The notes under the pieces were generated by a model. That model did not search any database. It saw only the letters and a program-made list of their open reading frames with translations, and was not told the origin of the DNA. From IMG/VR virus record IMGVR_UViG_3300042521_003411, positions 1 to 50,410 of that record: 50,410 nucleotides of DNA, one strand, 5' to 3'. This DNA comes from a virus. The position numbers and the translations under genes are program-made. This document shows positions 1,130 through 44,337 of this stretch, piece after piece (positions within the stretch are counted from its first letter, which is position 1; the number at the start of each line of letters is the position of its first letter).

Positions 1130-3397
1130 TTAAAAGTTTATTTCTTGTATTTTGTCGTCTTCAGTTTTTTGAGATTCTGATTTGGTTTTAGGTTTAACAA
1201 CAAAAGATCCAGGGAGATTTTCAAATAAAGATGTTTCTGGTGTAAACATCAGTTCAAACATACCTGTAGGACCATTACGATGTTTAGTGATCAAAACTTC
1301 CGTCTTTCCTTTATCAGGAGTGGAAGAATTATAATAATCTTCCCTATATAACATTATGATCATGTCGCAATCCTCTTCAATACGTCCTGACTGACGTAAA
1401 TCACTATTCGATGGTCGTTTGTTAGTACGACTTTCTACGCCACGATTTAACTGAGATAAAATAAATATAGGGACGTTTAGTTCTCGGGCGAGTCCTTTTA
1501 GTTGTGTTGTTATTTTACCAATTTCTCGCGTAGGATCGTCACCTTGTATCATTAATTGTAGATAATCTATGACGATCGCACCTAACCCGCCAACTTCTCT
1601 ATTAAGTTTACGTGATTTGGCCAATACCTCAGCTATGGTTATGTAAGGAGTGTCATCTATATAAAATTTCATTTCTGAAACTTTAATAATACCCTCATGC
1701 AATCTTTCCCATTGATCAGATTCTAACCTTCCCGATCTAAGGGATGAAAAGTTGATCTGCGTCTCATTAGACAATAATTTGTAAGCTAACTGGGTTCTAG
1801 ACATCTCTAAACTGAAGAAAGCTAGAGGAACATTATTTCTAACGCATATATTTTTCGCAATATTAAGAACGAAGGTCGTTTTACCTAAACCGGGTCTACC
1901 TGCTACCGCGATAAGATCAGTACGTTGAAAACCTTGCGTATTATTATCGATTTCATGGTATCCAGTTATCAATCCATGAAAATTGTCTTCTTTAGCTCTG
2001 CGATCGATCTCATCATATACATCAGCGAGAAATTCACTGGTATGTAATAGATCGTTAGCTTTAACCCGTTGTAAGTGTTTTGCTAAAACTTCCAGTTCAT
2101 CTAAAGACAGACGGGTTCCTGTTATTTCCCCGTCCATCAGCTTACGACGATAAGGGATGAACTTAAAAGTATTACCAGAATCCCGTAGAGTTATATAGTT
2201 GGCTATACCTAAAATAAGTTTCTGTTCATCAGTAGCATTCTCCGGTATATCTTCTAAATTTACAGAAACCTGGTTTTCTGCAAAACTCCTTACTATTCCA
2301 CCGATGTTCAATACATCCTTATTAGGAACGTTCTCCCACACCCACGTTTTAATACGATTAATAATATTCTTTGGTTCTAATGTAGTATTGCGATCTTTCT
2401 TCTCAGCAGATCGCCACACAGTATCCCATTCAGAAGACCCCCAACCGCCACCGTCAGAACACTTCTCACAGTATTCCACAAATAAATCATAAGGATCGCC
2501 ACTATACCGTTGGTTTTCAGATTCTAAAAAATATGATGCTGCTATAAGATCGCAAGCTAGCGAAAACGCGCCATTGTTTCTATAGTCATCGCTACCCTCT
2601 TTAATCTTAGTCTGATTTTCTATAGACAGACAAATGATTAACGGTACACTATCGTTTATCGGAAACTTAAAAGATTTACAAAATTCTCCATAAGAAATAC
2701 CTTTGCGAACCTCACTGACAGGAATTAGCGATCGCAAGTCATTGTAATCATGAGGTTTTCCAGTACCTCCTACAATTCGAGCGTGTTCACCAGTTGTTAC
2801 ATTCAACATGCCAGCTAAGGCCATAATCCTAGATGGATTCTTATTAACTGGATCCGCACTTGATAACGCGATCAAATCCTCCTGTAAAGCCCTCCATTGG
2901 GATTCTTCTAAGGGTTCTGATAGAGTCCAATAGTTGTGAATAGATTTGGAACCCGTGTCTACTTGAACGGTAGGTTCAGGTAGTCCTAACGCTAACCAGA
3001 AGGATTTCTGAGCGTCTTTAGGGAATATCCACTTCTGTTTTTTCTCCTTTTCCTCCATTGGTTTAATGGGAAATTCTACCTCAGGGAGAAGCATTTTCAT
3101 CTTCTCAAGAGTAGACTCATCTATATAGTCATGTTCGTAGAAGATCGTTCTACAAGCAGTAATGTCCTTATCTCCATCTCCACCAGGGTGAACAACCACA
3201 TAGATTTTACGACCTTCATCTATCCACTTGGTTAAAGTCATAACCGGATATTGAGGCATCGTAAAGATCAGGTTGCGTGGTTTTGTATCATCGTAGGTCT
3301 TCGGTAAGAACGATCGCAACCTCACTTCTTCACCGTCTGTATATCCAATAGCAGTCAAAAATTTGCTGAGATGGTCAAACAAGAAGGGCTTCTGCAC
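1130..3397 (-). CDS. AEP primase - DnaB helicase fusion
   Basis: 755 residues, two modules. Residues about 1-200 resemble archaeo-eukaryotic primase (AEP) domains of cyanobacterial mobile elements: CRTIFYEHD (acidic residues E88/D90), TVQVDTGSKSIHNYW (invariant His154) and SRIMALAGM (189-197). A PriCT-like linker follows (about 245-360). Residues about 385-735 are a DnaB-type helicase: Walker A GRPGLGKTT (500-508), VIDYLQLM (Walker B), QLNRGVE and the SDLRQSGRIEEDCD stretch. One chain could thus unwind DNA and lay primers at the phage fork. The start is GTG, overlapping the previous stop (TAGTG) and preceded by AAGGAAA. It lies between the initiator and PolB genes in one operon. The helicase assignment is very safe; the AEP assignment rests on motifs only. 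Confidence 0.9.
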   Translation of the reverse strand: MQKPFLFDHLSKFLTAIGYTDGEEVRLRSFLPKTYDDTKPRNLIFTMPQYPVMTLTKWIDEGRKIYVVVHPGGDGDKDITACRTIFYEHDYIDESTLEKMKMLLPEVEFPIKPMEEKEKKQKWIFPKDAQKSFWLALGLPEPTVQVDTGSKSIHNYWTLSEPLEESQWRALQEDLIALSSADPVNKNPSRIMALAGMLNVTTGEHARIVGGTGKPHDYNDLRSLIPVSEVRKGISYGEFCKSFKFPINDSVPLIICLSIENQTKIKEGSDDYRNNGAFSLACDLIAASYFLESENQRYSGDPYDLFVEYCEKCSDGGGWGSSEWDTVWRSAEKKDRNTTLEPKNIINRIKTWVWENVPNKDVLNIGGIVRSFAENQVSVNLEDIPENATDEQKLILGIANYITLRDSGNTFKFIPYRRKLMDGEITGTRLSLDELEVLAKHLQRVKANDLLHTSEFLADVYDEIDRRAKEDNFHGLITGYHEIDNNTQGFQRTDLIAVAGRPGLGKTTFVLNIAKNICVRNNVPLAFFSLEMSRTQLAYKLLSNETQINFSSLRSGRLESDQWERLHEGIIKVSEMKFYIDDTPYITIAEVLAKSRKLNREVGGLGAIVIDYLQLMIQGDDPTREIGKITTQLKGLARELNVPIFILSQLNRGVESRTNKRPSNSDLRQSGRIEEDCDMIIMLYREDYYNSSTPDKGKTEVLITKHRNGPTGMFELMFTPETSLFENLPGSFVVKPKTKSESQKTEDDKIQEINF

Positions 3398-4674
3398 TAG
3401 ACAATTTCCTTTTTGAACAATAGTTTGATCAAGAATTTAGCGTAACGAGGTCTATCGTTACTACTTAACTCCTGATATAGCGTAACACCAGTTTTGTCCT
3501 GAACAAAGGGATGTAATTCATGTTGATCCAATTGCTTAAACGTATTACAGCTTTCTTCGTTGCTATTCGTATGGAAATTTCTAACATATTTGTTAACCAA
3601 AGAGATCATCTTGTAACCAAAATCGTTTGGATCGTTTGGATCCATCAAATCGATATCGTCCAGCATCCTCACCAGACGCGGATCCATCTTCTCACCACCT
3701 TCAGAAGAGTCGCCAGTACAGGAGTTACTAGCTAAGTATTTATCATTGAACTCAATCAGATGGGATTTTGTAAAAAGGGTTTCAAATGCGTGTTTCTTGG
3801 GAGTGTTAGTTCTAGGGTCTACTGGACTACTCCACCATGGATCTATCTTAATGAAGGAGATCGCATTTGTCCATATCTTGATCGCGTCATCACCATGTTT
3901 CTTTATAAACGATCGCAATTTCTTCTTACGATCGTCGTCAAGGATCCTTACATTGCTCCAACAAGGGGGAGTTTCATTATAAAGATCCACCATCTGTTTC
4001 ATCAGAAGATCCACTGATGTGATCTCAGTAGACGAAGATCGTTCAACATTCGTGGATAAAGAAGGATCGCTATCAGATGTGGATAATGCCCCGTCAGGGG
4101 CGTCTTCAGTATATATATTCTCTTTAGTCTTTTTAGAATATAGAAGATCGGACCAAACTGGTCCTTCCGAAGGTTTCAGACTGACCTCTTCGATTGGGTC
4201 AATTTGACCTGATCGATGATCTCTATCTGAACCAATCGATTGGGTCAAATTGGATTCACCGAAGCAAAAATTTTTTACGGCTTCTATGATCTCTGTTCTA
4301 GTCTTAGTTACACATGAGATATCCAGTAGAGATAGTCTCTCAACGGCGGTGTAGTTGATTGTGTAAGCTTTCGTATGGTCGTATGGATTCTTGTTGAATC
4401 TCCCACTGATCACAAGACCCATATTTTCTAGACTCGATAGGATCCGTTTAACAGTGGATACCGACCACCATGTAAACTGTTTAGCTTGCCATTCCTCAAT
4501 CGTGTTAAGTATCCACCAATGCCCGTCTTTGAACGTGTCAGTACGTTCTGCTTCTTGGTTGAGTCGTAACCAGTAGTTGATCTGCTGTAGTACGATCGCC
4601 GCTTCTAATCCAATCTTGTTGGATAGAGAAGGTAATACCATCATTGGATATTCGTCAATTAGTAATTTATTCAT
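3397..4674 (-). CDS. Replication initiator / replisome organiser (DnaD-like)
   Basis: 425 residues from the ATG at 4674, which has AGAGGA just upstream; an upstream in-frame start at 4731 would add 19 residues with no ribosome site. The N-terminal third is a winged-helix of the phage replisome-organiser type: IVLQQINYWL, GHWWILNTIEEWQ, STVKRILSSLENMGLV. The middle is low-complexity linker. The C-terminal part (DDDRKKKLRSFIKKHG through FETLFTKSHLIEFNDKYL) resembles DnaD C-terminal helicase-loading regions. It is first in the operon with the primase-helicase and PolB. Its own linker-coding DNA (4191-4253) carries iteron-like repeats also found at 26.65-26.78 kb, as lambda O carries ori inside its gene. 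Initiator role is inferred from fold and context. Confidence 0.7.
   Translation of the reverse strand: MNKLLIDEYPMMVLPSLSNKIGLEAAIVLQQINYWLRLNQEAERTDTFKDGHWWILNTIEEWQAKQFTWWSVSTVKRILSSLENMGLVISGRFNKNPYDHTKAYTINYTAVERLSLLDISCVTKTRTEIIEAVKNFCFGESNLTQSIGSDRDHRSGQIDPIEEVSLKPSEGPVWSDLLYSKKTKENIYTEDAPDGALSTSDSDPSLSTNVERSSSTEITSVDLLMKQMVDLYNETPPCWSNVRILDDDRKKKLRSFIKKHGDDAIKIWTNAISFIKIDPWWSSPVDPRTNTPKKHAFETLFTKSHLIEFNDKYLASNSCTGDSSEGGEKMDPRLVRMLDDIDLMDPNDPNDFGYKMISLVNKYVRNFHTNSNEESCNTFKQLDQHELHPFVQDKTGVTLYQELSSNDRPRYAKFLIKLLFKKEIV
4191..4253. repeat. Iteron-like repeats inside the initiator gene
   Basis: Two copies of the GATTGGGTCAATTTG-type element lie here. The 29 bp at 4191-4219 match 26746-26774 at 27 of 29 positions, and the 23 bp at 4231-4253 match 26654-26676 at 21 of 23. 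Codons here encode a variable linker, so conservation is probably for DNA, not protein. A candidate intragenic origin or initiator-binding site. Confidence 0.7.
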
Positions 4675-4778
4675 GGAATCCTCTTTCAATAGGTACAGAA
4701 ACAAAACGCTCCTAACGGAACGCTTGATCAAAACTATAGCTTAAATCGATAGAGAAGGAGGGACGATCGCTACCTTAA

Positions 4779-13312: not shown

Positions 13313-13957
13313 TGTAGGAAAGGCACTTGTTGGCAATAAAAGATTGTTACCAAAACGTAGTTTACAAGATCTTATTGATTTACCACATTCATCTTTTGTG
13401 GGATCTGTTGTAGTTTGATCCGCTAACGTGAACATATTTGTTCCTGTATATCCACACTCAGGGCCTCTATATTCCCACACACAAGATCGCAGTGCATATC
13501 TACTAGGTAAAGTAGCTTGACCGAATTCTAATGGCGATGAGCCCTCAAATGTTATTTGCATCCAAGGTTCATAAGATATTACTCTACTTATTATGTAATC
13601 TATTTCTTGTAACTTTGCAGTAGAATCTGGTGTAGATCCACCATCTGTGAATCTAAATTTTGTTCTTATTATTTTTAGAGAAGAACCTTCTAGTCCATCT
13701 ACAGAGTCAATTAAATTTGATATAACACCATTAGGATCGCCAACATTGATTTCTAATCTTGGTACAGGGCCAGTAGATGTAATTTCTATTGTTTTATGTG
13801 TAACAGGGATTAGACTTATGCTACCACCCCAAGAAACTTGTTGATTAGAGAAGCGAAATACATCGAATGGATTATCAGGATTAAAATCCCTCAATATGTA
13901 TATATAAACGTCACTAGATTGATCTAAGCTTATTAAAGACTGTTTGAATTGTGTCAT
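13298..13957 (-). CDS. Minor tail protein gpL-like
   Basis: 219 residues. The C-terminal pattern of four cysteines, CVWEYRGPECGYTG then DECGKSIRSCKLRFG, is that of the lambda gpL family, whose cysteines hold an iron-sulfur cluster. The ending SAFPTLSRR corresponds to the GGFP-type end of relatives. The start overlaps the gpJ stop (ATGA). It probably links tail tube and tip. Confidence 0.88.
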   Translation of the reverse strand: MTQFKQSLISLDQSSDVYIYILRDFNPDNPFDVFRFSNQQVSWGGSISLIPVTHKTIEITSTGPVPRLEINVGDPNGVISNLIDSVDGLEGSSLKIIRTKFRFTDGGSTPDSTAKLQEIDYIISRVISYEPWMQITFEGSSPLEFGQATLPSRYALRSCVWEYRGPECGYTGTNMFTLADQTTTDPTKDECGKSIRSCKLRFGNNLLLPTSAFPTLSRR

Positions 13958-23129: not shown

Positions 23130-25679
23130 CTAAACTTCTACAGTTTCGTTGATATTGATAATTTTTACGTCGCTATAGTCGGGGAGAGGATAGTTAGAAA
23201 ATAACCAAACTGTAGCGTTCGTTCTTAAAATTCTAGCTCGACCAACAGCCTGAATCAGTTCTTGTTCAATTAGCGCAAGATGAATATTTTGCAAGTTCAG
23301 ATTCTCATAGGTACGAAAAATAAATCGGAATCCGTTACGAAAAATTTCCTGTTGTACCACGGAAACATAGGGCGGGGTTTCCATACCGAGGACAGCCGCT
23401 ATAAGTTCAACTAAAGACTGAGGAGGATGGGGAGTACCGACGACCGCTATATTTTTACCTTTAAGATCATCGTATCCAGAACAATTACCAAAATGGATAT
23501 TTTTGCAAACGTTAAGGAAACGATCTTTGAAAGCCTTAAACGTGATCACTTCAGGATCTCCAGCTTCTTCCAATTTAATCCTAACATAGTTTTCTGTTTC
23601 AGGATTGCTCAAAGATCGTCTGGAACAGGATTTAGTTGTGTCCTGGATCAATTTACCTTTGGGAACCACGTTGGATATATCCACGAAGTTTAGTCTATCC
23701 TCGTCAATAAGATATCTGTAAATATTTTCATCAGCGGTAGCTGAAAGAATTATATATTGGCGATCGCTAGGTAATTCTTTTTTACCAACGAAGTTAAGTT
23801 TACCAAGATCGTTCGTGTCTAAGCAAAACTTTCCACGTAAACGAAAAACGTCTAAAATATTACCGTCAAAACGATTAGAATTATCTGCCACTATAGTTGT
23901 TAGTAATAAATTAGCTTTGTCAGAAATAACAAAGTGTGGCATATCCTGTATTATATAGGCTTCCTTCTCAATAATTTCTAAATAGTACGAAATAACAGGT
24001 TCGACTGATCTAGTCAGGTTATCGTTCTGTTCTCTTCTAACTAACGAACGAAGAACGTTAAGATCTTCACGAGTGATATAATAAGTAGGTAACAATTCGG
24101 AAATGATATCCTCGTCGAAAATAAAAAGTTTACAATGACCAAACGGATATCGATTCGTACGAGCGTTCTTCGTTAGAGCTTTACGAGTAGTTCCAATAAT
24201 AGATCGTGTTTGGGTACCGTACGCCTCAGCATTTCTTCTTTCGTAGGACAGTAGTTGCTCTTTAAGATCAGTATCCTTAGTTTTTCTTTTTAGAGCCTTT
24301 ATAGCGGCTTGAGCTTTGATATACGCGCCTACGTTATAAAGTTCGTCAATATTACCAGGTATATTAGGAGGTTGTTCAGGAGTAACTACCGCAGAGAGCG
24401 TTTCTGTCTCACCTAAGTATTTATTAATAAATTCGTCTTTTAACTTGTGTGTGGTAAAACCACAGAATAAAGCTACACCTTGGCGTTCGTACTGTTTATA
24501 AATTTCAGCTTGCATACGAGTCTTGCCTTGTCCTGTAGCGAATTTAAGAACTGTCACGCTGTTATCTTTACGATCAACAGCATCGTAGAACGCCGCCGTC
24601 ATGATTTTGTCGGCCTCTTCTACTGTGTAGGCGGAAAGTTTAACATTTGGAATCTTCACAGCTTTACCCTCGTTTTTATAAGCCGTAGCGGCGTTAGAAT
24701 ACCGGTGATCCTTTATAAAAGGACTATAACATAAATTAGCGGGAAAATAGTCAGGGTGCTTACGCAGTGAGTTGAAGATCCTGTAATGTTTCGATTCGTA
24801 ACGCCCGTCAGCGACCATCCAACGCTCAGCCTGTTTAAGACCACCCTCAAAAGGCAAGAGATTGGTGATAGCAGTGAAAAGATCGGGATAAGATAGACGA
24901 TCTCCTATTTCGTATTGTTCTGTAGACTCAGGTACACCATCTCGTAAAGCTTTAATTAAGACAACGCGATCGCACAACCGATTAAAGTCAGGTTTGGAAA
25001 TTATATCGTAAGTGGCTTTCCCACCATCAACAAAAGACAATGATTCGTTTTCGGATATTTTGAGATTAGTGGCACGACTTATAATGGTTCTAGCCGATCT
25101 ATCACTACAATTTTTAGCTGCTTCACTATCGGCAGCACTTTTTAACAGATCGTAGTTTAAAGGCGTCGAATCAAAATTTTCAAGTAATAATTCACGACCT
25201 CCGAAATAGAACTGAACGAGACGATTTGAAGTTAAATCTGCTTCAGGAAACAAAACATGTAATCTATTCAGATAGTTTAGAGTTTCTGTTTTATCTAGAT
25301 GTCTACCAGAATCGAAAACAACACGAAATTTTCTTGTTTCGGGAGTATCGCTAAAAGAAGTATGAAAAAATTTCCAGTCAATACCATACTCTTCTAAACG
25401 AGTTTTAACTTGCTCTGGAGTAATAACTGATCTTTTATTATCAAAGTCCATAGCTAATAAACGAGAGAACACAAAGTATTCAACCGTCTTTTTTTGAGAA
25501 CACACCGAAGGGGACCAACTATAGCCGTCAATAATATAGGAAGCTAATTCCGCGATCTTTACTTCAGTAGGTGTTAATCTGTTTACGATCGCTCCAATCA
25601 GATCTTGACCTTCTTTAGTATTTCTATCGGGTTTGTTAGAAAGCTTTGTTTTCAGATCTAGAGAAACTTTAACGATCAT
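23130..25679 (-). CDS. Second AEP-like primase - helicase fusion
   Basis: 849 residues. The N-terminus has LLAMDFDNKRSVIT (DxD at 78-80), TSFSDTPETRKFRVVF (107-122) and RLVQFYFGGRELL, the pattern of AEP-like primase domains in mobile-element replication proteins. From about 370 there is an SF2-like ATPase: KFATGQGKT (Walker A, 381-387), LFIFDEDIISE, IILSATADENIY and QAVGRARILRTN near the end. It differs entirely from the AEP-DnaB protein at 1.1-3.4 kb, so the element has two primase-helicases. It lies between the RHH regulator and the SF2 helicase in one operon. AAGGAA precedes the ATG. The domain calls are by motif. Confidence 0.65.
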   Translation of the reverse strand: MIVKVSLDLKTKLSNKPDRNTKEGQDLIGAIVNRLTPTEVKIAELASYIIDGYSWSPSVCSQKKTVEYFVFSRLLAMDFDNKRSVITPEQVKTRLEEYGIDWKFFHTSFSDTPETRKFRVVFDSGRHLDKTETLNYLNRLHVLFPEADLTSNRLVQFYFGGRELLLENFDSTPLNYDLLKSAADSEAAKNCSDRSARTIISRATNLKISENESLSFVDGGKATYDIISKPDFNRLCDRVVLIKALRDGVPESTEQYEIGDRLSYPDLFTAITNLLPFEGGLKQAERWMVADGRYESKHYRIFNSLRKHPDYFPANLCYSPFIKDHRYSNAATAYKNEGKAVKIPNVKLSAYTVEEADKIMTAAFYDAVDRKDNSVTVLKFATGQGKTRMQAEIYKQYERQGVALFCGFTTHKLKDEFINKYLGETETLSAVVTPEQPPNIPGNIDELYNVGAYIKAQAAIKALKRKTKDTDLKEQLLSYERRNAEAYGTQTRSIIGTTRKALTKNARTNRYPFGHCKLFIFDEDIISELLPTYYITREDLNVLRSLVRREQNDNLTRSVEPVISYYLEIIEKEAYIIQDMPHFVISDKANLLLTTIVADNSNRFDGNILDVFRLRGKFCLDTNDLGKLNFVGKKELPSDRQYIILSATADENIYRYLIDEDRLNFVDISNVVPKGKLIQDTTKSCSRRSLSNPETENYVRIKLEEAGDPEVITFKAFKDRFLNVCKNIHFGNCSGYDDLKGKNIAVVGTPHPPQSLVELIAAVLGMETPPYVSVVQQEIFRNGFRFIFRTYENLNLQNIHLALIEQELIQAVGRARILRTNATVWLFSNYPLPDYSDVKIININETVEV

Positions 25680-25705
25680 TATCTTCGATTCCTTACTACA
25701 TTAAA

Positions 25706-25906
25706 CTAATTAGTCTTCCGCTCCTTCTTAACCAACTCAATACCAATACGAAGTACAGCAGCCATAGTAATACCCATCTCGCAAGAAATATCGTAAAGTT
25801 CCTTTTTTTCGTCTTCGGTCATACAGAATTGGTAAAACGACTTAGGAGAATCGTTATCAAGCCGTCTGTAAGCACCCCTCTTCATTTCTTTTACAACTTT
25901 TTTCAT
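25706..25906 (-). CDS. Small ribbon-helix-helix-like DNA-binding protein
   Basis: 66 residues: basic start (MKKVVKEMKRGAYRRL), then SFYQFCMTEDEKKELYDISCEMGITMAAVLRIGIELVKK, a strand-helix-helix pattern typical of CopG/Arc proteins. First gene after a strong promoter and next to the repeat-rich control region. It may be an autoregulator, copy-control or centromere-binding (ParR/Omega-like) protein. No ParA/ParM ATPase is seen in the window. Confidence 0.7.
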   Translation of the reverse strand: MKKVVKEMKRGAYRRLDNDSPKSFYQFCMTEDEKKELYDISCEMGITMAAVLRIGIELVKKERKTN

Positions 25907-25938
25907 TTGATAAACCTAAAGTATTGATTATTACTAAT

Positions 25939-25966
25939 TTTATATCTTTATTCGATATATTGTCAA
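25939..25966 (-). promoter_or_regulatory. Near-consensus sigma70-type promoter
   Basis: On the minus strand, -35 TTGACA (25966-25961) and -10 TATAAA (25944-25939; TATAAAAT in full) are 16 bp apart. It points into the RHH - AEP/helicase - SF2 operon, 33 bp before the RHH start codon. Confidence 0.8.
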
Positions 25967-26095
25967 GTAGTAATAGAGTAATTTCTAATATCCGTTTCTA
26001 GATAGATCGCGATCGTCATTTATAATTACTTTTCCTTTATTTTTATATATATAATTTTTTATAGAATTAGCTGTAATCCTTATATAGCAATAGGT

Positions 26096-26350
26096 TGACC
26101 CCCTTTACATAGATGCTGTGTGTGTTCCCTCTTATCACCTATTTTCGTGCTATTTTTCATTATTCTATTTGCTATAACCTTTATATATCAATGCTTTCGA
26201 GGTTTGTTTCGTTTTCCCGGAGGCTTAGATTATATACAAGGCTCCGGGTTTTCGCAACAAAGAGGGAAAGATCATAAAAGGACTTAGAAAAAAGAGAAAT
26301 ATAGAGAGATCTACAGCAGCACACACACAGCATCTATGTGAATGGGGTCG
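26096..26350. repeat. 30-bp inverted repeat pair enclosing a GC hairpin
   Basis: 26096-26125 and 26321-26350 are inverted copies with 27 of 30 positions matching and the inner 19 perfect (core ACACAGCATCTATGT). Between them lies a hairpin, CCCGGAG (26217-26223) and CTCCGGG (26242-26248). The arms are 195 bp apart. Possible origin structure, recombination site or element ends. Confidence 0.75.
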
Positions 26351-26653
26351 ATATATATAAACACTGAAAATTATATAAAAAAAACGATCGCGATCGTCCT
26401 TATTTCATTCCTATTTCATTCGATCGCGATCGATCTACAAAAAAAAGAGGGTAGAAACAGAAAATATCGCCTCTAAACCCTCTGTAAGCCTGATTAACAA
26501 ATTAACGATAAGAATTACCTCGACTGCCTTTAGCGCCTCTTAAAAACGATTCTGAGAGGACTAACAGTGGTTATCACAGGAACCACATACTAAGGAACTA
26601 ATCGACAAACGAAATGGAAGAACGATCGCGATCAATCATCTAAATTCATTTTG

Positions 26654-26781
26654 ACCAATCGAATGGGTCAATTTGGTCTAATCGAATGGGTCAATTTGGT
26701 CTAATCGATAATTCAGAAGTGATCGGTTAAATTGTTTTGACTAATCGATTGGTTCAATTTGACCTGATCGATTAGTCAAAA
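26654..26781. repeat. 23-bp iterons and a 15-bp inverted repeat
   Basis: Two exact-phase tandem 23-bp units (26655-26677 and 26678-26700) differ by one base; core AATCGAATGGGTCAATTTGG. A partial unit follows at 26701, and another at 26741-26763. TTTTGACTAATCGAT (26735-26749) is repeated inverted and perfect at 26767-26781, flanking a third core. A degenerate copy lies near 26794-26818. The same elements occur in the initiator gene. Confidence 0.85.
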
Positions 26782-26876
26782 TGAAAAAAGGGATTAGATC
26801 AATCTGACCTGATCGAACGATTTAACCGATGATCGCTCTAAAAATGCGATCGTCCTGAGAGATGAACATCGATTAG

Positions 26877-27294
26877 TGGCACCTTAGAGAGGTACCATCA
26901 ATTGTACGCACTTATACTCACTAAAAATATCGTCATATTAATATCGCCATTTTAAGGTGCAACTAATTATCGATAAGTAAAAATACGGGCGATCAATGGC
27001 ACCTAAAAGAGGTACCACTAATCATACGCACTTATACTCATCGTAGATAATCAAGAACCATTGTATTGATGGCACCTTAGGGAGGTGCCATTGATCGCTA
27101 TGCAGCTATCGATAAGTAAAAATACTGAAGAACGATGGCACCTAAAAGAGGTACCACTAATCATACGCACTTATACTCACTATTTTTCAATGTAAAGAAA
27201 TGTAAAGAAATGTAAATTGATGGCACCTCTTACTTAGATGGATGATACAATTCTTATAATGCTTACATAGTGAGCGTTTCAATTGATGGCACCT
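26877..27294. repeat. TGGCACCT palindrome array (operator/centromere-like)
   Basis: Four 21-bp elements of form TGGCACCT-n5-AGGTRCCA start at 26877, 26997, 27070 (perfect palindrome) and 27136. Half sites TGGCACCT lie at 27221 and 27287, and an inverted half near 26954. Copies at 26997-27040 and 27136-27179 are identical over 44 bp. TACGCACTTATACTCA follows three copies; ATCGATAAGTAAAAATAC occurs twice. The last half site sits about 25-32 bp before a -10 box, as an operator would. Confidence 0.85.
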
Positions 27295-27318
27295 CTCGAA
27301 AACACATATTGAGTGGTG

Positions 27319-27324
27319 TATAAT
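27319..27324 (+). promoter_or_regulatory. -10 box (TATAAT) of the MerR-like operon
   Basis: TATAAT lies 8 bp before the ATG at 27332, so the transcript would be nearly leaderless. No clear -35 is seen; the TGGCACCT half site at 27287 takes its place, suggesting repression or activation by a protein that binds the repeat array. Confidence 0.55.
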
Positions 27325-27331
27325 ATCTAAC

Positions 27332-27631
27332 ATGACCTACAGTGAGCTAATACTTTCTCTAGGAGAGGTAAAACAGTTTGTAGAACGAGAAACAAAGAAA
27401 CGGGTAAGTAAAACCACCTTATTTAGGTGGATGAGGGAAATCCTTGACTTACCTGTTTATGACCCTAGCAAGGTCAGAGTTTACACAATTGAAGATGCCG
27501 TATGTCTTTCTTTTTGGGCTATTTCTTCTGAAAAAGCGAAGAAAGGATCTAGACACGGTAGACGAAACAGACGGATTCAATTTTATGAGGAATTATTCTT
27601 GTCATGGCAGCGAAACCAATCAATAAGCTAA
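27332..27631 (+). CDS. MerR-like helix-turn-helix protein
   Basis: 99 residues. LGEVKQFVERETKKRVSKTTLFRWMREI with a following VRVYTIEDAVCLSFWA resembles the DNA-binding half of MerR-type proteins. The C-terminus is basic (KKGSRHGRRNRRIQF). It is the first gene after the palindromic array with a -10 box just before it. A reasonable guess is that it binds the array and controls its own operon. It overlaps the next gene by 28 bp. Confidence 0.65.
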   Translation: MTYSELILSLGEVKQFVERETKKRVSKTTLFRWMREILDLPVYDPSKVRVYTIEDAVCLSFWAISSEKAKKGSRHGRRNRRIQFYEELFLSWQRNQSIS

Positions 27632-28014
27632 AAGAAGAGCAGGAAACGCCCGTTACACCCCCTAAAACAGGCGAAACCACTTATGACACCAGTACGGACA
27701 TTACTCTGGTGAAGGCTACTCTAGCCCTCTCAGATCAGCACTACGAGAAGCTTTACACAGCGATCATTTCACACGAACAAGATAACGCTAAAAAGTTTTC
27801 TAAGTTCTACGAAAAGCAAGTATTAACAGGCAATGTACGATCGCATTACTTGGCTGAGGAATTAGCTAAGCTACAGGCACCTGAGATTCAAACGATCGCG
27901 ATCGACCGTCCCACTGTATATAACGACATTGATTTCAGTAGCAAAGTTGATGCTCGATTAGCTCTAAATGGCCTGTTTCCGAGACTAGCACTAGGAGAAG
28001 GTAGCAATGAATAG
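27604..28014 (+). CDS. Hypothetical protein
   Basis: 136 residues. A Thr/Pro-rich start (EEQETPVTPPKTGETTYD) then a helical section (LSDQHYEKLYTAIISHEQDNAKKFSKFYEKQV). No family recognised. GAGGAA lies upstream of the ATG. Overlaps both neighbours, hence part of the MerR-like operon. Confidence 0.65.
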   Translation: MAAKPINKLKEEQETPVTPPKTGETTYDTSTDITLVKATLALSDQHYEKLYTAIISHEQDNAKKFSKFYEKQVLTGNVRSHYLAEELAKLQAPEIQTIAIDRPTVYNDIDFSSKVDARLALNGLFPRLALGEGSNE

Positions 28015-29041
28015 AAGTCAAGACATGTCCCCTGCGGGGCATCCTAGTATCGAATACACACCCAAATGTACCCAAGTGTACCCAGTTGGGTCCGATACTG
28101 GGGACAATGGATGGTATATTCGTTTGGAGGATGGTTCTTCCTATTTGATAACGCACCTACCGTCTTCCTATGACGTTCCTGGTTATGGGCAATACGACGC
28201 CTATAGAGAGATGGAAGCGGCGGGTCAATGTTCTCAGAACGGTGTCGTTATGCCTATGCGTAAACGTTCACCACAGCAAGAGATTGCGATTGAGACTGTC
28301 TCTGCAGCTTCTCAATCTTCCTACATCGTCAATGAATATCCTCAACTAGGTCAGGACAGTTTTACAACTACAACGTTGGTTTGTGTTGCTGCCCTTGGCT
28401 TAGGGTATGGTGCTGTTAAATATTTTTCTCGCGCACAAGTAGAATATTGGTTAGGTCAATATGAAGAAGATCGAATTTCTCAAAACACGATTGTTGATCC
28501 TCTACCTGTCCCTCCTGGCGGAAGCGTACCGTCCCCGTGGGCAGGAACCCCCATTTCCCAACCGCTTCCGCGATTTTCGATGAGCGGAAATGGCCCGGAA
28601 GCAGAGTGGAAATGCCCCGGAAATGGCCCGGAAGCGACCGGAAGCAGAGCGGAAACGGGCGGAAATGAAGTGGAAATAGCCGGAAATAAGTGGAAGCAAA
28701 GCGGAAACAACCCGGAAATAAACGGAAGCAACTGGAAGCGAAGTGGAAGCAGAGCGGAAATAAGTGGAAGCGAAGCGGAAATGGATCCGAAACCAGTTGC
28801 TACTATCACTGTTGACGATATAGATTACATCAGAACTCAGTTGAGTTCAATTCGAGAACGATCGCAACAAAATAACTTTTACGATCTTGACGTTAACAAC
28901 AAGGAGGCTTTTCTAAGATATTGTCAATTAAAAGATCATCACAATCGTAGAACGATCGCTAGCATAATGTTCAACATCGAAGGAGGGAGGAAATGGGAAC
29001 AAGTTAGAGGCGTTTTTGATGAATGGGATAGAAGCGTTTAG
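28007..29041 (+). CDS. Hypothetical membrane protein with DNA-level GGAA repeat tract
   Basis: 344 residues; ATG preceded by AGGAGAAGG. A hydrophobic stretch TTLVCVAALGLGYGAVKYF (about 125-143) may cross the membrane. Residues about 193-258 are low-complexity (Gly, Asn, Glu, Trp, Lys, Ser) and encoded by the GGAA array. The C-terminal 80 residues look folded (VDDIDYIRTQLSSIRERSQ, REAFLRYCQL-type helix, KWEQVRGVFDEWDRS). No family recognised. The repeat is read in all three frames of GGAA (GN/GS, PE, WK), so the protein sequence is a by-product of the DNA. Confidence 0.7.
   Translation: MNRSQDMSPAGHPSIEYTPKCTQVYPVGSDTGDNGWYIRLEDGSSYLITHLPSSYDVPGYGQYDAYREMEAAGQCSQNGVVMPMRKRSPQQEIAIETVSAASQSSYIVNEYPQLGQDSFTTTTLVCVAALGLGYGAVKYFSRAQVEYWLGQYEEDRISQNTIVDPLPVPPGGSVPSPWAGTPISQPLPRFSMSGNGPEAEWKCPGNGPEATGSRAETGGNEVEIAGNKWKQSGNNPEINGSNWKRSGSRAEISGSEAEMDPKPVATITVDDIDYIRTQLSSIRERSQQNNFYDLDVNNKEAFLRYCQLKDHHNRRTIASIMFNIEGGRKWEQVRGVFDEWDRSV
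28586..28780. repeat. Helically phased GGAA array
   Basis: GGAA starts at 28586, 28597, 28608, 28619, 28630, 28640, 28651, 28661, 28672, 28682, 28692, 28703, 28714, 28724, 28734, 28745, 28756, 28766 and 28777. All 18 intervals are 10 or 11 bp, mean 10.6, close to one turn of B-DNA. The neighbouring bases vary around a loose (C/T)GGAA(G/A)(C/T) unit. Confidence 0.92.
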
Positions 29042-29065
29042 TAGTTGAAAAAAAGGAGTCTTACT

Positions 29066-30049
29066 ATGTCGCAACCATTTAATCTACCGTCTGACTTACC
29101 AAACGATTTTTTCGATTGGCCAGAACATAAACAAGAACAGTGGATAATTGAACATAGCCGTAATACACAACCACCGGAGGAAAATAGACGACCATCACAG
29201 ATGCAAGGATCACGATTAGGCAATCAGCGATCGCATTTACCAGGATCACAACATCCACAAGAACGTATACCTAGCGTATACAACACTAAATTGAGTGATC
29301 CTATAGAACAGAGACAAGTAGAACAAGTTCATGTACAAGCGGAGCAGAGTAGAATGCGAAGAGAATCGACATACTTACACGATCTAAACACCTTGGCTGC
29401 ATTAGGTCTTACATTTTCCACGGTTAAGTTTATCGGAGTACCACTGCTGTCATTTTTTGATGCTGTATTTTCTTTTTGGGGATTGTCAGCGACACTAACG
29501 GCGGATGGTAGGAATAGTGCGATTAGCATTGTTCTAAGTGCAGCGATCGGCTTCATCATTTTTGGTTTAGGTGTTAGCACCAATATCAAAGTAAACGGAG
29601 AAGTCGTCCTAAGTCGATTTCTTCGTGTTGATACCAATGAAGACGGTCAAGTATCAACTCTTGAACGTTTAGTGTTTTTTGGCAAAGTCTTTTGTATTAT
29701 TACAATTGTGTTAGCAAACGTATCGACTAATTACTTAGGAATGGATCAAACGGGAGCAGCTAAACTGTTTCCTTTCATCCCTGGTTGGATAAACTGTTTA
29801 TTCCTAGCGATCGTTCTTATGGTTTCCCCTCACGTATTACTTCCAATATGTGATGCTATCTTACAAGCGATCGCTGAATTGATTCCTGATGCTATGATTG
29901 ATGCTAGGAGCAATCAAGCGCGTACAACCTACGCGGTAGACTTTGGTAAACATCTACTTGGTAGCATCACAGGAAACGCTTCTACTGACGCTCAAAAAGC
30001 TGTCACTAGGATTACGCCTAAGGGTAAGAATTACAAAATTCAGAAGTAG
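29066..30049 (+). CDS. Polytopic membrane protein with an EF-hand-like loop
   Basis: 327 residues from the ATG at 29066, preceded by AAGGAG at 7 bp; a TTG at 29045 is not preferred. The first 100 residues are hydrophilic and Gln/Pro-rich. Four hydrophobic segments follow (about 112-140, 151-172, 207-225, 236-262). Between the second and third lies DTNEDGQVSTLE (about 189-200), a full EF-hand calcium loop pattern. No family recognised. The operon then continues with another membrane protein and two peptidoglycan hydrolases, so a holin-like or envelope role is possible. Confidence 0.7.
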   Translation: MSQPFNLPSDLPNDFFDWPEHKQEQWIIEHSRNTQPPEENRRPSQMQGSRLGNQRSHLPGSQHPQERIPSVYNTKLSDPIEQRQVEQVHVQAEQSRMRRESTYLHDLNTLAALGLTFSTVKFIGVPLLSFFDAVFSFWGLSATLTADGRNSAISIVLSAAIGFIIFGLGVSTNIKVNGEVVLSRFLRVDTNEDGQVSTLERLVFFGKVFCIITIVLANVSTNYLGMDQTGAAKLFPFIPGWINCLFLAIVLMVSPHVLLPICDAILQAIAELIPDAMIDARSNQARTTYAVDFGKHLLGSITGNASTDAQKAVTRITPKGKNYKIQK

Positions 30050-30055
30050 AAGACA

Positions 30056-30358
30056 GTGGACAACATCGAACGTCTTATAGAAGTAGCTGTTCAGGAGGGT
30101 AATACACGCCTTGCTGAACAGCTAACTACCTTAGCTACTATAAAGGCTCAACAAACCACGATTTATGAACAACAAGAGGAAGAAGATGAGTATGTGATAG
30201 TTATTAAAGATCGCACTATAGATCGTAAATATTGGTTAATAACGGGAGCTGCCGTAGCGATCGCGATCAGTCAAGTTATGGCCCCTGGTTATAGTAAATT
30301 TGCGTTACCCATAGTAGATCATATTGATGTTCCTTTTATGAGGTCAAATGATAAATAA
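30056..30358 (+). CDS. Small single-pass membrane protein
   Basis: 100 residues, GTG start 6 bp after the previous stop. A helical, Gln-rich N-terminus (LIEVAVQEGNTRLAEQLTTL) and one membrane segment (WLITGAAVAIAISQVMAP). It overlaps the M23 peptidase gene by 11 bp. Could be a holin/spanin-type partner, but no signature is seen. Confidence 0.6.
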   Translation: MDNIERLIEVAVQEGNTRLAEQLTTLATIKAQQTTIYEQQEEEDEYVIVIKDRTIDRKYWLITGAAVAIAISQVMAPGYSKFALPIVDHIDVPFMRSNDK

Positions 30359-30962
30359 TCACTTTGTAACTTGGGGTGTATGTGGTGCGATCGTTCTAGT
30401 GCCATCAGTGAACCGACAAGTAGAATCATTGGTTCATCATGGATATGCCAAATTCGGTGATGTGGAGATACTTATCCCTTTAGATTATGAAACCGCGACA
30501 GAACAGATTGTAGTAGAAAAAAAGAATCCTTCGTTTGATCTTACAGATCCATTTATAGGCCAAGTTATTGGCACTCATAAAGTAACAAGTTTACAGGGGC
30601 CTAGAAAGTCACCCTGTCCAGGTTGTTCTAAATATCACAATGGTGTAGATGTAGGTACTCCCATAGGAATACCTCTTTATGCACCAGATAATATAGAAGT
30701 TGTCTGTAAATTCGATGGTAATGGTGGCGGCTATTACGCAGAGTTTTGGTACGCTGACATGTTATGGCAGCTTTTACATTTGAAGAAAGACACCTGTAAA
30801 AGTGGTGGTTATGAAAAAGGGTGGAAGATCGCTGAAACAGGTGATACTGGTAACGGCACTGGTCCTCATTTACATCTTCAACTACGTGCTAAAGATGCAA
30901 ACGGACGATTCATGTTTGTAAAAGTTAAAACAGGTCATCTTACAGCGGTATTGTTTCAATGA
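30348..30962 (+). CDS. M23 (LytM-type) peptidase
   Basis: 204 residues. A hydrophobic N-terminal stretch (FVTWGVCGAIVLVPSV) may anchor or export it. The catalytic pattern is complete: YHNGVDVGTPIG (HxxxD zinc ligands) and GPHLHLQLR (HxH), with GDTGNGTG between. Insertions around CPGCSKYH and the Cys at 'DTCKSGGY' give extra cysteines. It would cut peptide cross-bridges in peptidoglycan. Coupled to the GH19 gene by a 4-bp overlap; together they look like a lysis pair. Confidence 0.88.
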   Translation: MINNHFVTWGVCGAIVLVPSVNRQVESLVHHGYAKFGDVEILIPLDYETATEQIVVEKKNPSFDLTDPFIGQVIGTHKVTSLQGPRKSPCPGCSKYHNGVDVGTPIGIPLYAPDNIEVVCKFDGNGGGYYAEFWYADMLWQLLHLKKDTCKSGGYEKGWKIAETGDTGNGTGPHLHLQLRAKDANGRFMFVKVKTGHLTAVLFQ

Positions 30963-31753
30963 TTAGATTTTTGTTGAAGTGGTCCTTTCCAGCGATTCTT
31001 TTAACAGTTAGTTTCCATCAACCGCTCAATAAAACAATTGAGAGTTATTATTACTACGGGTTCGATATAACAACTCCTAGTGTCTCTATACCTTTGGTAA
31101 ATATAAAAACACCAGAGGTTGTTATACGACATATACCATCACTCCAAAATATTACTCAAGAAGCACTGGATAACACTATTAACAAAAGCTTACCTGTAAA
31201 TTTCCAAATAGGACGAAAAGCTGAAGTTGTTACCGCTATCATCCACGGTGCGATCAATTTGAATATTACAGATGTTGGACAAGTATCTTATATATTAGCC
31301 ACAGCTCAACATGAAAGTGCGAACTTTACCACATTGGTAGAAATAGGAAACTGTGATTATTTCGCCAATAGAGCTGGTGGTAATGGTTATGTTAATCGCA
31401 TGGGTAATCTGAGTAAAGAAGACGCTTGTAAATATATTGGTAGAGGTTTAGTACAGTTAACTGGAAAGAATAATTATAAAAAAATATCTAGTATCTATAA
31501 TGTAAATGCGGTTCAAAATCCTGATATTATAGTTAGTCCTGACGTTAGTGTTACTTTGTTAATTGAAGGTATGATGGGTGGTTGGTTTACTGGTAAATCT
31601 TTACCTCAGTATGTATCTGGAGATCAACGAGATTATGTTTCCGCTAGGAGAGTCGTTAATGGGAAAGATCGCGCCCATCATATAGCGACTATTGCTAGAA
31701 ACTACGAAGCGTTAGTCGAAAAAGCGTTTATTGAATATGGAGTTCTAAAGTGA
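30959..31753 (+). CDS. GH19-type endolysin (chitinase/lysozyme fold)
   Basis: 264 residues. An N-terminal hydrophobic segment (FLLKWSFPAILLTVSF) suggests export or membrane anchoring. The GH19 catalytic region is clear: ILATAQHESANFTTLVEIG (catalytic Glu) and YIGRGLVQLTGKNNYKKI, followed by VSVTLLIEGMMGGWFTGKSL. It would break the glycan strand of peptidoglycan. ATGA overlap with the M23 gene before and GTGA with the gene after. Confidence 0.88.
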   Translation: MIRFLLKWSFPAILLTVSFHQPLNKTIESYYYYGFDITTPSVSIPLVNIKTPEVVIRHIPSLQNITQEALDNTINKSLPVNFQIGRKAEVVTAIIHGAINLNITDVGQVSYILATAQHESANFTTLVEIGNCDYFANRAGGNGYVNRMGNLSKEDACKYIGRGLVQLTGKNNYKKISSIYNVNAVQNPDIIVSPDVSVTLLIEGMMGGWFTGKSLPQYVSGDQRDYVSARRVVNGKDRAHHIATIARNYEALVEKAFIEYGVLK

Positions 31754-32289
31754 AAACTGGACGTAGAGAACATCTTCGTTTTAATAATATAGTGTCAAGA
31801 GGATTGTCACTAGGTCTAGTAGTTATACTTATATCACTGATACACATATTTTATGAAAATAACAGATTAGACCTTATTAAACCTTGGTGGATAACAGCTC
31901 TTCTCCTTTCTCCTATACAGTTCAGCATACATGAGCGTTGGGCTGGTCCTGACATGGACATTCCTACACGTAAAGGTCTATTAGGTATATACTGGCGTAT
32001 CTATGCGAAAAATGTCAGACATCGTGGTATGTTCAGCCACACGTTAGTATTTGGTACTCTTGTTAGGTTCCTTATTGGTTATTGGTTTGTTGTATTGGGT
32101 TTGTTAGCGATCTTTAATTTAGATGTCCTATTAGTACAACCTGTAATTTTGGGAGATCTCCGGTTGCCTAATGAGGTTGGATATATGATCCTATGTTGGT
32201 ATGGTTCTTGTGTTTTAAGCGATCTGGCACATATTATATGCGATCGCATTTTGAATCCTATAAAAATTTTATTTTTAGGAGATGCTTAA
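31750..32289 (+). CDS. DUF2227-like metal-binding membrane protein
   Basis: 179 residues, GTG start overlapping the previous stop (GTGA). SIHERWAGPDMDIPTRK and RHRGMFSHTLVFGTLVR resemble DUF2227 proteins (conserved His and Asp, an HRG..H motif). Three or four hydrophobic segments. Last gene of the lysis-type operon; it could serve as holin, but the family is usually assigned to metal-dependent membrane hydrolases. Confidence 0.65.
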   Translation: MKTGRREHLRFNNIVSRGLSLGLVVILISLIHIFYENNRLDLIKPWWITALLLSPIQFSIHERWAGPDMDIPTRKGLLGIYWRIYAKNVRHRGMFSHTLVFGTLVRFLIGYWFVVLGLLAIFNLDVLLVQPVILGDLRLPNEVGYMILCWYGSCVLSDLAHIICDRILNPIKILFLGDA

Positions 32290-32290
32290 A

Positions 32291-32989
32291 TTATTTTTGT
32301 TGGAACAACCATTTTAGTAAAGGTTCTATTTCATCAGAGATTAAAATAGAAACTCCTAGTCCTATAAGGAATAATTTTGTGATTTGTTCCAACCAAGATG
32401 CGCTAGGCGTTTTTAACCATGTGAATACATCACTTAAAATAGTCCATGGTGAAGCGTTTTCTTTAGCATGTTTCATTAAAGGAGAACCGTCTTCTATAGG
32501 TGAACAAGGTTCTTCTTTGTAAGGACCACATCGCCACTGTTCATCATTCCATATATCTTCATTGGATGTATCGTAAGGCGATTGCTTTACGATTATTTTT
32601 TTATCATTACCAAAATGAATTCTATCGTTATAGTTTATCGTTGCCCAATCTTTTGGTAACAGTCTTTCCCCATTTAACCATACACCGTTGGATGAAGGTC
32701 TTACAGCTTTAGCAGAACTGTCTTTCTCATCTATGTATATACCTCCATCCAATATCATATACAAGCCGGTTTTGTATTCGTGTTTAATTGTGCATTGTAT
32801 TCTTGATATTGCTCGATAGTGAAGTAATTCCTTTTTGTTATCTGTAGGTTTAAGTTGAATATCACAATAAGGTAAAGTTCCCATCAACCAATAAGTATCA
32901 TCTTTACCAGGCTTTGTGGTTAACTCTATTAACTCACCTGCTAAATCGGCGGGAAATTCTGGCGATAAATATAGATACAATGTTGCCAC
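32291..32989 (-). CDS. Membrane-anchored FHA-domain protein
   Basis: 232 residues. Residues about 1-120 match the FHA pattern: a central AISRIQCTIKHE (in place of SxxH) and SSNGVWLNGERL with the conserved Asn pair. FHA domains bind phosphothreonine. The C-terminus has one membrane segment (ITKLFLIGLGVSILI, about 206-220). It is convergent with the lysis operon with a 1-bp gap. Cyanobacteria have many FHA and Ser/Thr kinase proteins, so it may bind a host kinase target. The usual His of the SxxH motif is replaced (SRIQ), so phosphopeptide binding is not certain. Confidence 0.75.
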   Translation of the reverse strand: MATLYLYLSPEFPADLAGELIELTTKPGKDDTYWLMGTLPYCDIQLKPTDNKKELLHYRAISRIQCTIKHEYKTGLYMILDGGIYIDEKDSSAKAVRPSSNGVWLNGERLLPKDWATINYNDRIHFGNDKKIIVKQSPYDTSNEDIWNDEQWRCGPYKEEPCSPIEDGSPLMKHAKENASPWTILSDVFTWLKTPSASWLEQITKLFLIGLGVSILISDEIEPLLKWLFQQK

Positions 32990-33245
32990 TTTTCTATTTT
33001 GTCTAATTTTATCATGCGATCAAATGATAATTTTTTTAGGTCGTGAACGGTGTCAAAGTAGATAAACAATTAGATATGTTGATGGATCTACATTGCAACT
33101 CTTTTATATATAGATCGGTCTCTATGTTATTGATTATCTGCTCTCCCCGCAACTATTCAACGCCTGAAACCCTTGACTATAGCGGGGTTGCGGTGGGGCT
33201 GTGCCGTGGCTGGACTAACTTTGGACTAAATGGAGGGCTGGAGTA
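32990..33245. other. Left junction of the GC-rich fibre island
   Basis: No convincing gene; a 67-codon open frame (33043-33246) spans the change in composition and has no known motif. TTATCAT and ATGATAA (33009-33015, 33024-33030) form an AT-rich hairpin followed by T7. The DNA turns GC-rich at about 33145, where CCGCAAC (33147-33153) and GTTGCGG (33187-33193) are inverted repeats, followed by direct GGACTAA repeats (33212, 33223). Confidence 0.6.
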
Positions 33246-43544: not shown

Positions 43545-43718
43545 TTAGAAACTATTTTTGTCGGAGATAGATTCATGGATCTCTTTAGCGATCGCTAATA
43601 TTTTATTGATCGCTAATGTTGGATTAGAATACTCTCTAAAAAGGTTAGGGTTCGCCAATAATCCAGAGCATATCAGATAATAACAAAGTTTTTCAATATC
43701 TTTCTTGTCAATGTACAT
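43545..43718 (-). CDS. Small hypothetical protein after the candidate TerS
   Basis: 57 residues. GGAGATTAGAG precedes the ATG at 43718, which lies 11 bp inside the upstream gene. LCYYLICSGLLANPNLFREYSNPTLAI then a helical end. No family recognised. Its 3' end faces the TerL stop 17 bp away. Confidence 0.6.
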   Translation of the reverse strand: MYIDKKDIEKLCYYLICSGLLANPNLFREYSNPTLAINKILAIAKEIHESISDKNSF

Positions 43719-44337
43719 CTCTAATCTCCTCTACGGTAGCTTCTATTATAGGTCTTTCAGATTCTTGTGTGTAACTAGCATAATATTCTTCTTTAGTTTC
43801 TCTAATAGCTTGAATAACCTGTATGAAAACATCATCTGGTAATTTCCGACGTAGTATTTCCGTTAATTGTTTAGTTTCTTCTTCTATTTTTTTCACTACT
43901 TGTACTCTTATAGGAGCATTGGCTCCTGTAAGAACGGATAAATCTTGTAACAACTTTCGACAAAATTCTGCGGCTTTAGGATCGGTTTCAGCTCTAGTTT
44001 TCCATTTTTTATATAACTCTTCTAACCTCATTAGTTGAAGTTGGTTATATTCAGTTGCTCCTTCTAGATTTTGTTCATGAAGTTTATCCATCGCCTCTCT
44101 TACAAGACGTGATATATAACTCGGTTTATATGGACGAATAGGGGTTCCAGTTTTGTCCTTTACACCTATTTTATAATTATCAAAAAGTATATCGCAAATT
44201 TCTTTGTCGTTATGACCATCTGTTCTTAGTTTTATACAGAGGTCTAAAACAATTTCCTCGGGTATATTCCTCGCTATACGTTTGTACGATCGAGGTATTT
44301 TAATTGATGTGTTGTGAGGGTTTTTGTAGATAGCCAT
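43708..44337 (-). CDS. Candidate terminase small subunit
   Basis: 209 residues. The N-terminal part looks like a DNA-binding helix-turn-helix (LRTDGHNDKEICDILFDNY ... SYISRLVREAMDKLHEQN); a helical middle with ELYKKWKTRAETDPKAAEFCRKLL follows, and a charged end. This arrangement is typical of phage small terminases, and it lies beside TerL, although on the other strand and convergent. Coupled to the upstream gene by TAATG. Confidence 0.55.
   Translation of the reverse strand: MAIYKNPHNTSIKIPRSYKRIARNIPEEIVLDLCIKLRTDGHNDKEICDILFDNYKIGVKDKTGTPIRPYKPSYISRLVREAMDKLHEQNLEGATEYNQLQLMRLEELYKKWKTRAETDPKAAEFCRKLLQDLSVLTGANAPIRVQVVKKIEEETKQLTEILRRKLPDDVFIQVIQAIRETKEEYYASYTQESERPIIEATVEEIRDVH

Follow-up and report, generated by a model that had tools for sequence, protein, structure and literature searches.

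In the portions of the published accounts drawn on here, several phages are described as carrying protein-bound DNA sites within coding sequence. SPP1 possesses two replication origins, one of which (oriL) lies in gene 38, and gp38 binds direct repeats in its own gene (PMC6316719). The O gene of lambda and ORF20 of 80alpha are described as carrying an origin within the gene (PMC5499656), and synonymous changes in the repL gene of P1, which contains oriL of that phage, are reported to impair RepL-mediated amplification (PMC9948254); a synonymous change inside a gene can thus disrupt a DNA function. The locus described here is an array of 19 GGAA motifs inside an open reading frame (ORF) of a virus, within a 50,410-nucleotide stretch (IMG/VR record IMGVR_UViG_3300042521_003411, positions 1 to 50,410), hereafter the window. 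The array is real and is best read as acting at the DNA level, as a variant of the phage DNA sites embedded in genes, and it would resemble all four of the above systems if its predicted protein binding occurs. It shares with the SPP1 oriL type the direct repeats inside coding sequence. In contrast to that type, the gene that holds the array (the array gene) is no recognized initiator, the core is only 4–6 bp long, the 19 copies follow one another at one per helical turn, and no AT-rich unwinding stretch was seen next to it. In Borg elements, in-frame tandem repeats with units divisible by three are described as giving perfect amino-acid repeats (PMC9879509). The array resembles these repeats in lying within a gene, often one for a membrane protein in the Borg case, and in having a disordered product, whereas its 10/11-bp half-units are not divisible by three (the 21-bp double unit is) and its heptapeptides differ from one another.

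The window is contained with one mismatch in a 139,448-bp IMG/VR record (G001), the terminal overlap of which (102 bases) gives a 139,346-bp circle. On the plus strand, the first GGAA starts at 28586 and the last at 28777, and the spacings are, in order, 11, 11, 11, 11, 10, 11, 10, 11, 10, 10, 11, 11, 10, 10, 11, 11, 10, and 11 bp (11 bp eleven times and 10 bp seven times; mean, 10.61 bp). The best-fit period is 10.55 bp, with a largest residual of 1.02 bp. This recount bears out the sequence-only reading of the window, which had reported nineteen motifs at 10/11 bp with a mean of 10.6. Its further statement that GGAA is read in three frames within an open gene also holds, because the codon phase is 0 in nine copies, 2 in seven, and 1 in three, and the whole array is contained in the 344-residue ORF. 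The base on the 5' side of GGAA is C in 13 of 19 copies and T in the other six, and the base on the 3' side is A or G in all 18 units counted, giving the consensus YGGAAR. The longest GGAA chain at 10/11-bp steps was two in each of 30 first-order Markov genomes (139 kb, one strand), and no 4-mer other than GGAA forms a chain of at least six at these steps in the 139,346-bp genome. In the encoded protein, an N-terminal part is followed by a hydrophobic segment (approximately residues 121–140, as judged by eye), a Pro-rich linker, the array (residues 194–258), and a helical C-terminal part; owing to this linker position, the gene can carry such a site. An AlphaFold2 single-sequence model of the protein was poor (pLDDT 36) and was not used. 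No Rfam match was obtained in 24000–33000. The predicted roll-phase curvature, calculated with a roll/twist parameter table, reaches 76 at the array, compared with a genome mean of 15.8 and 54 in the best non-overlapping segment; among 13,916 segments, the value of the array is attained in one, at 28601, which overlaps the array. This curvature follows from the phasing and is not independent evidence. It is compatible with the bent-DNA scaffold suggested earlier, although the "new kind" attached to that suggestion is too strong, as other phages contain arrays built in the same way.

From 28619 onward, the units keep a strict 21-bp register, so only the half-units shift between frames and the net frame is kept. 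The 21-bp units read Gly-Asn/Ser-x-(Pro/Ala/Val)-Glu-x-x with GGAA at +11 or Trp-Lys with GGAA at +10, and Tandem Repeats Finder detects 21- and 42-bp periods, the latter with a 77% match and no indels. Frame-preserving 21/42-bp duplication probably produced part of the array, and the 10/11-bp steps inside a frame-neutral 21-bp unit indicate the way in which it grew. When the protein and the phage codon usage are fixed, 27 synonymous choices preserve GGAA, and the log10 probability that every GGAA survives is −13.96; 20,000 synonymous redraws contained 6.05 GGAA on average and 12 at most, compared with the 19 observed, in a test that ignores the shared descent of the units. When the units are placed on a parsimony tree, which allows for common descent, and equal rates are assumed, 24 changes fall in the seven flanking columns and none in the four GGAA columns (P 2e-5, before a penalty for picking the tetramer). 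The invariant core fits a constraint on DNA, with the duplications explaining part of the pattern, and the earlier suggestion that selection acts on the DNA is supported by both counts. The array may instead be a minisatellite devoid of DNA function, in which a 10.5-bp seed expanded by slippage in frame-preserving 21- and 42-bp steps within a tolerant linker, GGAA being retained through the recent origin of its copies or through the usefulness of a disordered peptide linker (Gly-Asn/Ser, x-Glu, Trp-Lys). The eight units in strict register and the indel-free 42-bp period are in keeping with this explanation, as are the intergenic and low-complexity 10/11-bp repeats found among genome matches and the Borg elements, in which in-frame tandem repeats are described in proteins that are often extracellular or membrane ones (PMC9879509). 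However, the flanks changed 24 times and the core never, one core yields different residues across three frames, and a second viral array (L052, described below) retains TTGGAA while the remainder of its unit varies widely; a functionless minisatellite is therefore considered unlikely, but it deserves serious attention.

Arrays built like this one are found in other phages too, and the hosts that were tested are repeatedly replication initiators. IMG/VR was scanned for five copies of a tetramer at 10/11-bp steps, with the same pattern for control tetramers. The matching stretches, which were not de-duplicated, numbered 51 for GGAA (including the present phage), 85 for GGTT/AACC (80 of them retained as loci), 19 for AAGG, and 8 for CATC, corresponding to 47, 67 (of the 80 loci), 15, and 6 distinct arrays, respectively; GGAA and GGTT/AACC therefore exceed the other two tetramers. 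Some GGAA matches are plain purine runs or minisatellites. Within ORFs of at least 100 residues, the GGAA core lies on the coding strand in 26 and on the opposite strand in 3 of the 51 viral loci, and among the 80 GGTT loci the AACC strand is coding in 38 and the GGTT strand in 2, whereas the 57 bacterial and archaeal GGAA loci exhibit no such bias (17 versus 20). The present array fits this recurring build: its 10/11-bp core lies within a long ORF, on the strand that is favored. Because the search pattern itself mixes 10- and 11-bp steps, three-frame reading carries no weight as evidence in the other arrays.

Hosts for family assignment were chosen by eye, and the following fractions are therefore not estimates. 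Eight of nine viral GGAA hosts match replication-initiation families in PHROGs, L025 being the one with no match, and a tenth GGAA protein, from a genome locus (L103), also matches such a family. Pfam gave nothing for eight of the ten, and L028 matches Phage_rep_org_N. Initiator hosts have thus been shown for 9 of the 51 viral GGAA loci, and several of these initiator-hosted arrays are purine runs rather than diverse arrays. Further GGAA hosts include an Exonuclease VII small subunit gene, AlbA_2/RecG-C-like genes, a RepB-primase/AAA protein, and a rhamnosidase. Of ten AACC hosts, six match DUF6291 in Pfam (one below the cut-off) and one each matches DUF1376, Phg_2220_C, and AAA_25, with nothing for the last; in PHROGs, five of the ten match replication-initiation, helicase-loader, or primosome families, four match families of unknown function only, and one matches nothing. 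The AACC arrays sit after the N-terminal domain of DUF6291, DUF1376, and O-like phage proteins (e.g., L168, L171, L199, and L229) and possibly represent in-gene origins. They resemble the present array in their 10/11-bp spacing and in their position after an N-terminal domain, whereas their core is AACC instead of GGAA and their tested hosts are mostly replication-type proteins. At least one AAGG control locus (L077) also has an initiator-like host, as judged by eye. No description of phased AACC or other tetramer arrays in the linkers of phage initiator genes was noticed in the literature searched, with most subscription journals outside its coverage. Such arrays in initiator-gene linkers may matter more than the single array described here.

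A second example is L052, an 8.3-kb viral contig (IMGVR_UViG_3300016675_000597) with 21 TTGGAA-like sites, 19 of them exact, all 20 spacings of which are 10 or 11 bp, and with widely varying unit interiors. Its array occupies the end of a gene that encodes hydrophobic segments and a helix-turn-helix (HTH), the HTH directly preceding the array, and this gene is followed by a ParB-like gene (below curated cut-offs) and by terminase-like genes (by eye). L052 thus shares with the present array the 10/11-bp sites in a gene with hydrophobic segments. It differs in the HTH immediately before the array and in the neighboring ParB-like and terminase-like genes, and BLASTP, which compared the N-terminal parts only, revealed no relationship between the two proteins.

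Some other GGAA matches differ in setting. Phased GGAA arrays read as GS/RK-x-QE heptads occur in a Methanosarcina protein and in a related protein from a viral record (L050, L093, and L110), and L050 has a C-terminal cysteine motif, as judged by eye. In L126 and L139, GGAA arrays occupy the linker before a winged HTH in RecG-C-like (HATPase_c_4) genes, one of which also contains AlbA_2. L125, L145, L107, and L127 are intergenic or antisense 10/11-bp GGAA minisatellites of Bacteroidales genomes.

Based on these observations, we tentatively propose, at somewhat less than even confidence, that the array, located where its gene encodes the linker, is a DNA site that serves as a side-by-side track for a small DNA-binding protein of the phage and builds a nucleoprotein scaffold. 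The 19 YGGAAR contacts, one per helical turn, would be presented on a single face of the helix, where identical small subunits could dock next to one another, bending or wrapping the approximately 195 bp. The likeliest binder would be the 99-residue MerR-like HTH protein encoded at 27332–27631, acting in the manner of BldC, and the next candidate would be the helical C-terminal part of the product of the array gene itself. The complex may handle phage DNA as a scaffold for membrane attachment or as an accessory replication or loading site. BldC is described as binding 9-bp direct repeats head to tail and as forming filaments with one DNA turn per molecule (PMC5859096, PMC11963761). The proposed binder would thus resemble BldC as a small MerR-like protein capable of head-to-tail binding with one turn per molecule, whereas BldC recognizes the consensus AATTXXXX(C) in 9-bp repeats of promoters, and binding by the phage protein is only proposed. 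The model of the 99-residue protein (pLDDT 61) contains helices at residues 10–21, 27–38, 53–69, and 77–96. By its sequence pattern, the protein looks MerR-like. No family match was obtained for it in PHROGs, Pfam, or NCBIfam, and its top sequence match among solved structures is a collagen adhesin (E 0.0016) and not a MerR protein.

Should these arrays prove to be docking tracks, protein-binding sites phased by one helical turn have been placed repeatedly by phages into protein linkers, the 10/11-bp steps passing a DNA word through three frames while the gene stays open. They would then offer a simple signature by which origins and DNA-handling sites could be located in sequences of uncultured phages, and a well-defined case for testing the selection of a single stretch of DNA for two jobs. 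The present track would point to an uncharacterized DNA-handling module of this phage, with a possibly membrane-located protein.

Several results weigh against this proposal. The GGTT control outnumbers GGAA (85 versus 51), and GGAA was therefore rejected as a word with special status. Shuffling the steps of the array gives an order at least as regular in 33% of cases, so there is no phase-keeping beyond the 10/11-bp limit. A 21/42-bp register is the trace expected of slippage, and neglect of shared descent weakens the codon test. The product of the array gene has no known family in PHROGs, Pfam, or NCBIfam and is likewise not an initiator. The top five Foldseek matches of the 99-residue protein are chains of MerR, RacA, GlnR, and CarH, which are presumably MerR-type, but none is significant (E 0.29–0.76). 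The comparative material also limits the proposal: G001 is 100% identical across the array, but this sole relative to cover the array is the same phage, and two contigs encoding 97% identical versions of the 27332 protein (IMGVR_UViG_3300033980_000619 and IMGVR_UViG_3300042547_001090) stop before the array. A habit of host genomes was rejected for the genomes scanned, since only 1 of 386 genomes of the cyanobacterial phylum matched, through a low-complexity run; this genome is the centre genome of the set and had originally been found through that run.

The palindrome GCGATCGC, which we take to be HIP1 of cyanobacteria, occurs 62 times, compared with 0.74 expected from base composition, and owing to this abundance the record is taken as a phage of cyanobacteria. 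Among 50,697 phage records, no match to the array-gene protein was found, and scans with the whole protein, its C-terminal part, and the neighboring proteins recovered nothing but this phage itself and contigs that stop short of the array. One related contig (identity in this region, 96%) breaks off after residue 147 of the array-gene product, and a second ends approximately 100 bases past the gene at 27332–27631. A cyanobacterial match to the C-terminal part (E 0.009) was weak and was not taken as a relative. The positions of the array and of the other features of the window are collected in Table 1.

Table 1. Features of the 50,410-nucleotide window discussed in the text
Feature	Position	Strand	Basis or remark
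DnaB-like replicative helicase	1130..3397	-	phrog_19 E 3e-81
Replication initiator of the phage (DnaD/O-like), beside the DnaB-like helicase	3397..4731	-	phrog_6493 E 7.3e-33; phrog_345 (O-like) 6.6e-10
Three 23-bp iteron-like repeats inside the initiator gene	4188..4256	.	candidate in-gene origin of the phage
66-residue ribbon-helix-helix (RHH)-like protein	25706..25906	-	weak matches: phrog_876 repressor E 7.8e-4; RelB below cut-off
Intergenic cluster of partial palindromes, 23 bp and iteron-like (TCGATTGGGTCAATTTGACC type)	26657..26816	.	repeat scan
99-residue MerR-like HTH protein, first gene of the run of the array gene	27332..27631	+	predicted structure, weak Foldseek matches; candidate binder (putative)
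136-residue protein between the HTH gene and the array gene	27604..28014	+	function not assigned; no PHROG, Pfam, or NCBIfam match
Array gene, 344 residues	28007..29041	+	no Pfam, PHROG, or NCBIfam match
YGGAAR array, 19 motifs at 10/11-bp steps	28586..28780	+	positions, spacings, flanking bases; no comparable chain of another 4-mer in the genome (139 kb)
Eight strict 21-bp (seven-codon) units within the array	28619..28786	+	unit list and translation; 21-/42-bp periods
Protein downstream of the array gene, several hydrophobic segments (by eye)	29045..30049	+	no family match

The array could also be an origin embedded in a gene, its motifs serving as iterons for an initiator, as in SPP1 oriL. 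Initiator genes of other phages hold arrays of the same build, plasmid iterons are described as generally phased with the helix (PMC5043065), and an iteron-like cluster lies 1.8 kb from the array. However, the array gene has no initiator match, and the initiator of this phage and its iteron-like repeats are located elsewhere and differ in sequence. The 23-bp repeat gave 27 matches with at most seven mismatches on both strands (palindromic copies counted twice), compared with a mean of 3.2 and a maximum of 9 for 20 shuffled cores. In addition to the cluster listed in Table 1, TCGATTGGGTCAATTTGACC-type clusters occur at 57799–57943 and approximately 85501–85538 of the circle (window orientation), and all three clusters outside the initiator gene fall between ORFs of at least 100 residues. 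These repeat clusters are candidate origins or operators, possibly comparable to oriL and oriR of SPP1, and the GGAA array does not contain the 23-bp repeat. Given that the initiator carries these different repeats and that no initiator is encoded by the array gene, the array is unlikely to be the iteron set of this phage. The array is also GC-richer than the genome, and no strongly AT-rich stretch was found beside it when 60-bp segments were sampled every 60 bp from 27600 to 29700 (0.33–0.68 AT, compared with a genome 95th percentile of 0.72). An embedded origin is thus improbable. GC skew, which seemed to track gene direction, was not used as an origin marker.

In a more elaborate form of the docking proposal, which we regard as a long shot, the gene would tether itself: its protein would span the membrane, and either the soluble portion of that protein or the MerR-like partner would polymerize on the array and thereby tie the genome to the membrane, with L052 as an independent second case.

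The sequence-only reading had also raised a plasmid-type centromere, with an RHH protein in the role that ParR has at R1 parC. R1-type centromeres are described as possessing 10–11-bp direct repeats (PMC9426499), which is the likeness to the present array, and R388 is described as having two sets of five 9-bp repeats with 2-bp spacers (PMC3098194). In contrast to the present array, parC is described as lying upstream of parM. The record is a phage, and searches of G001 with ParA-type, ParB_N, and tubulin profiles returned no match, whereas these were positive in 14, 11, and 13 of 14 controls, respectively; the ParM profile PF06406 matched neither G001 nor any control. Since no ParA-type, ParB, or tubulin gene was found in the 139-kb genome, and the array lies in coding DNA 2.7 kb from the RHH-like gene, a centromere is very unlikely and the suggestion is weak. 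The gene at 25706–25906 is RHH-like by weak matches, and it borders a 1.4-kb region with palindromic repeats of its own, which we consider a likelier target of its product than the array.

A packaging site for the small terminase is hardly credible, since the large terminase gene of this phage starts 12.7 kb away, even though the array gene of L052 lies upstream of terminase-like genes (by eye) on the same strand. The ORF at 43708–44337, regarded by eye as a small terminase, was rejected because it matches phrog_645, named RNase E, and no terminase family.

The phage further encodes exonuclease-V-like and other helicases, beside the DnaB-like helicase and the O/DnaD-like initiator, and a lambda-J-type tail protein. 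The tail protein J homologue lies at 13954–16593, and its N-terminus resembles an intein or Hint domain, as judged by eye. After the array gene, proteins with hydrophobic segments (by eye), an M23 peptidase, and a GH19 enzyme are encoded, and this region looks like a lysis or envelope region. Upstream of the gene at 27332, a repeated block with GGCACCT...AGGTRCC palindromes is present in at least four copies at 26848–27300; these are possibly operators of a regulator.
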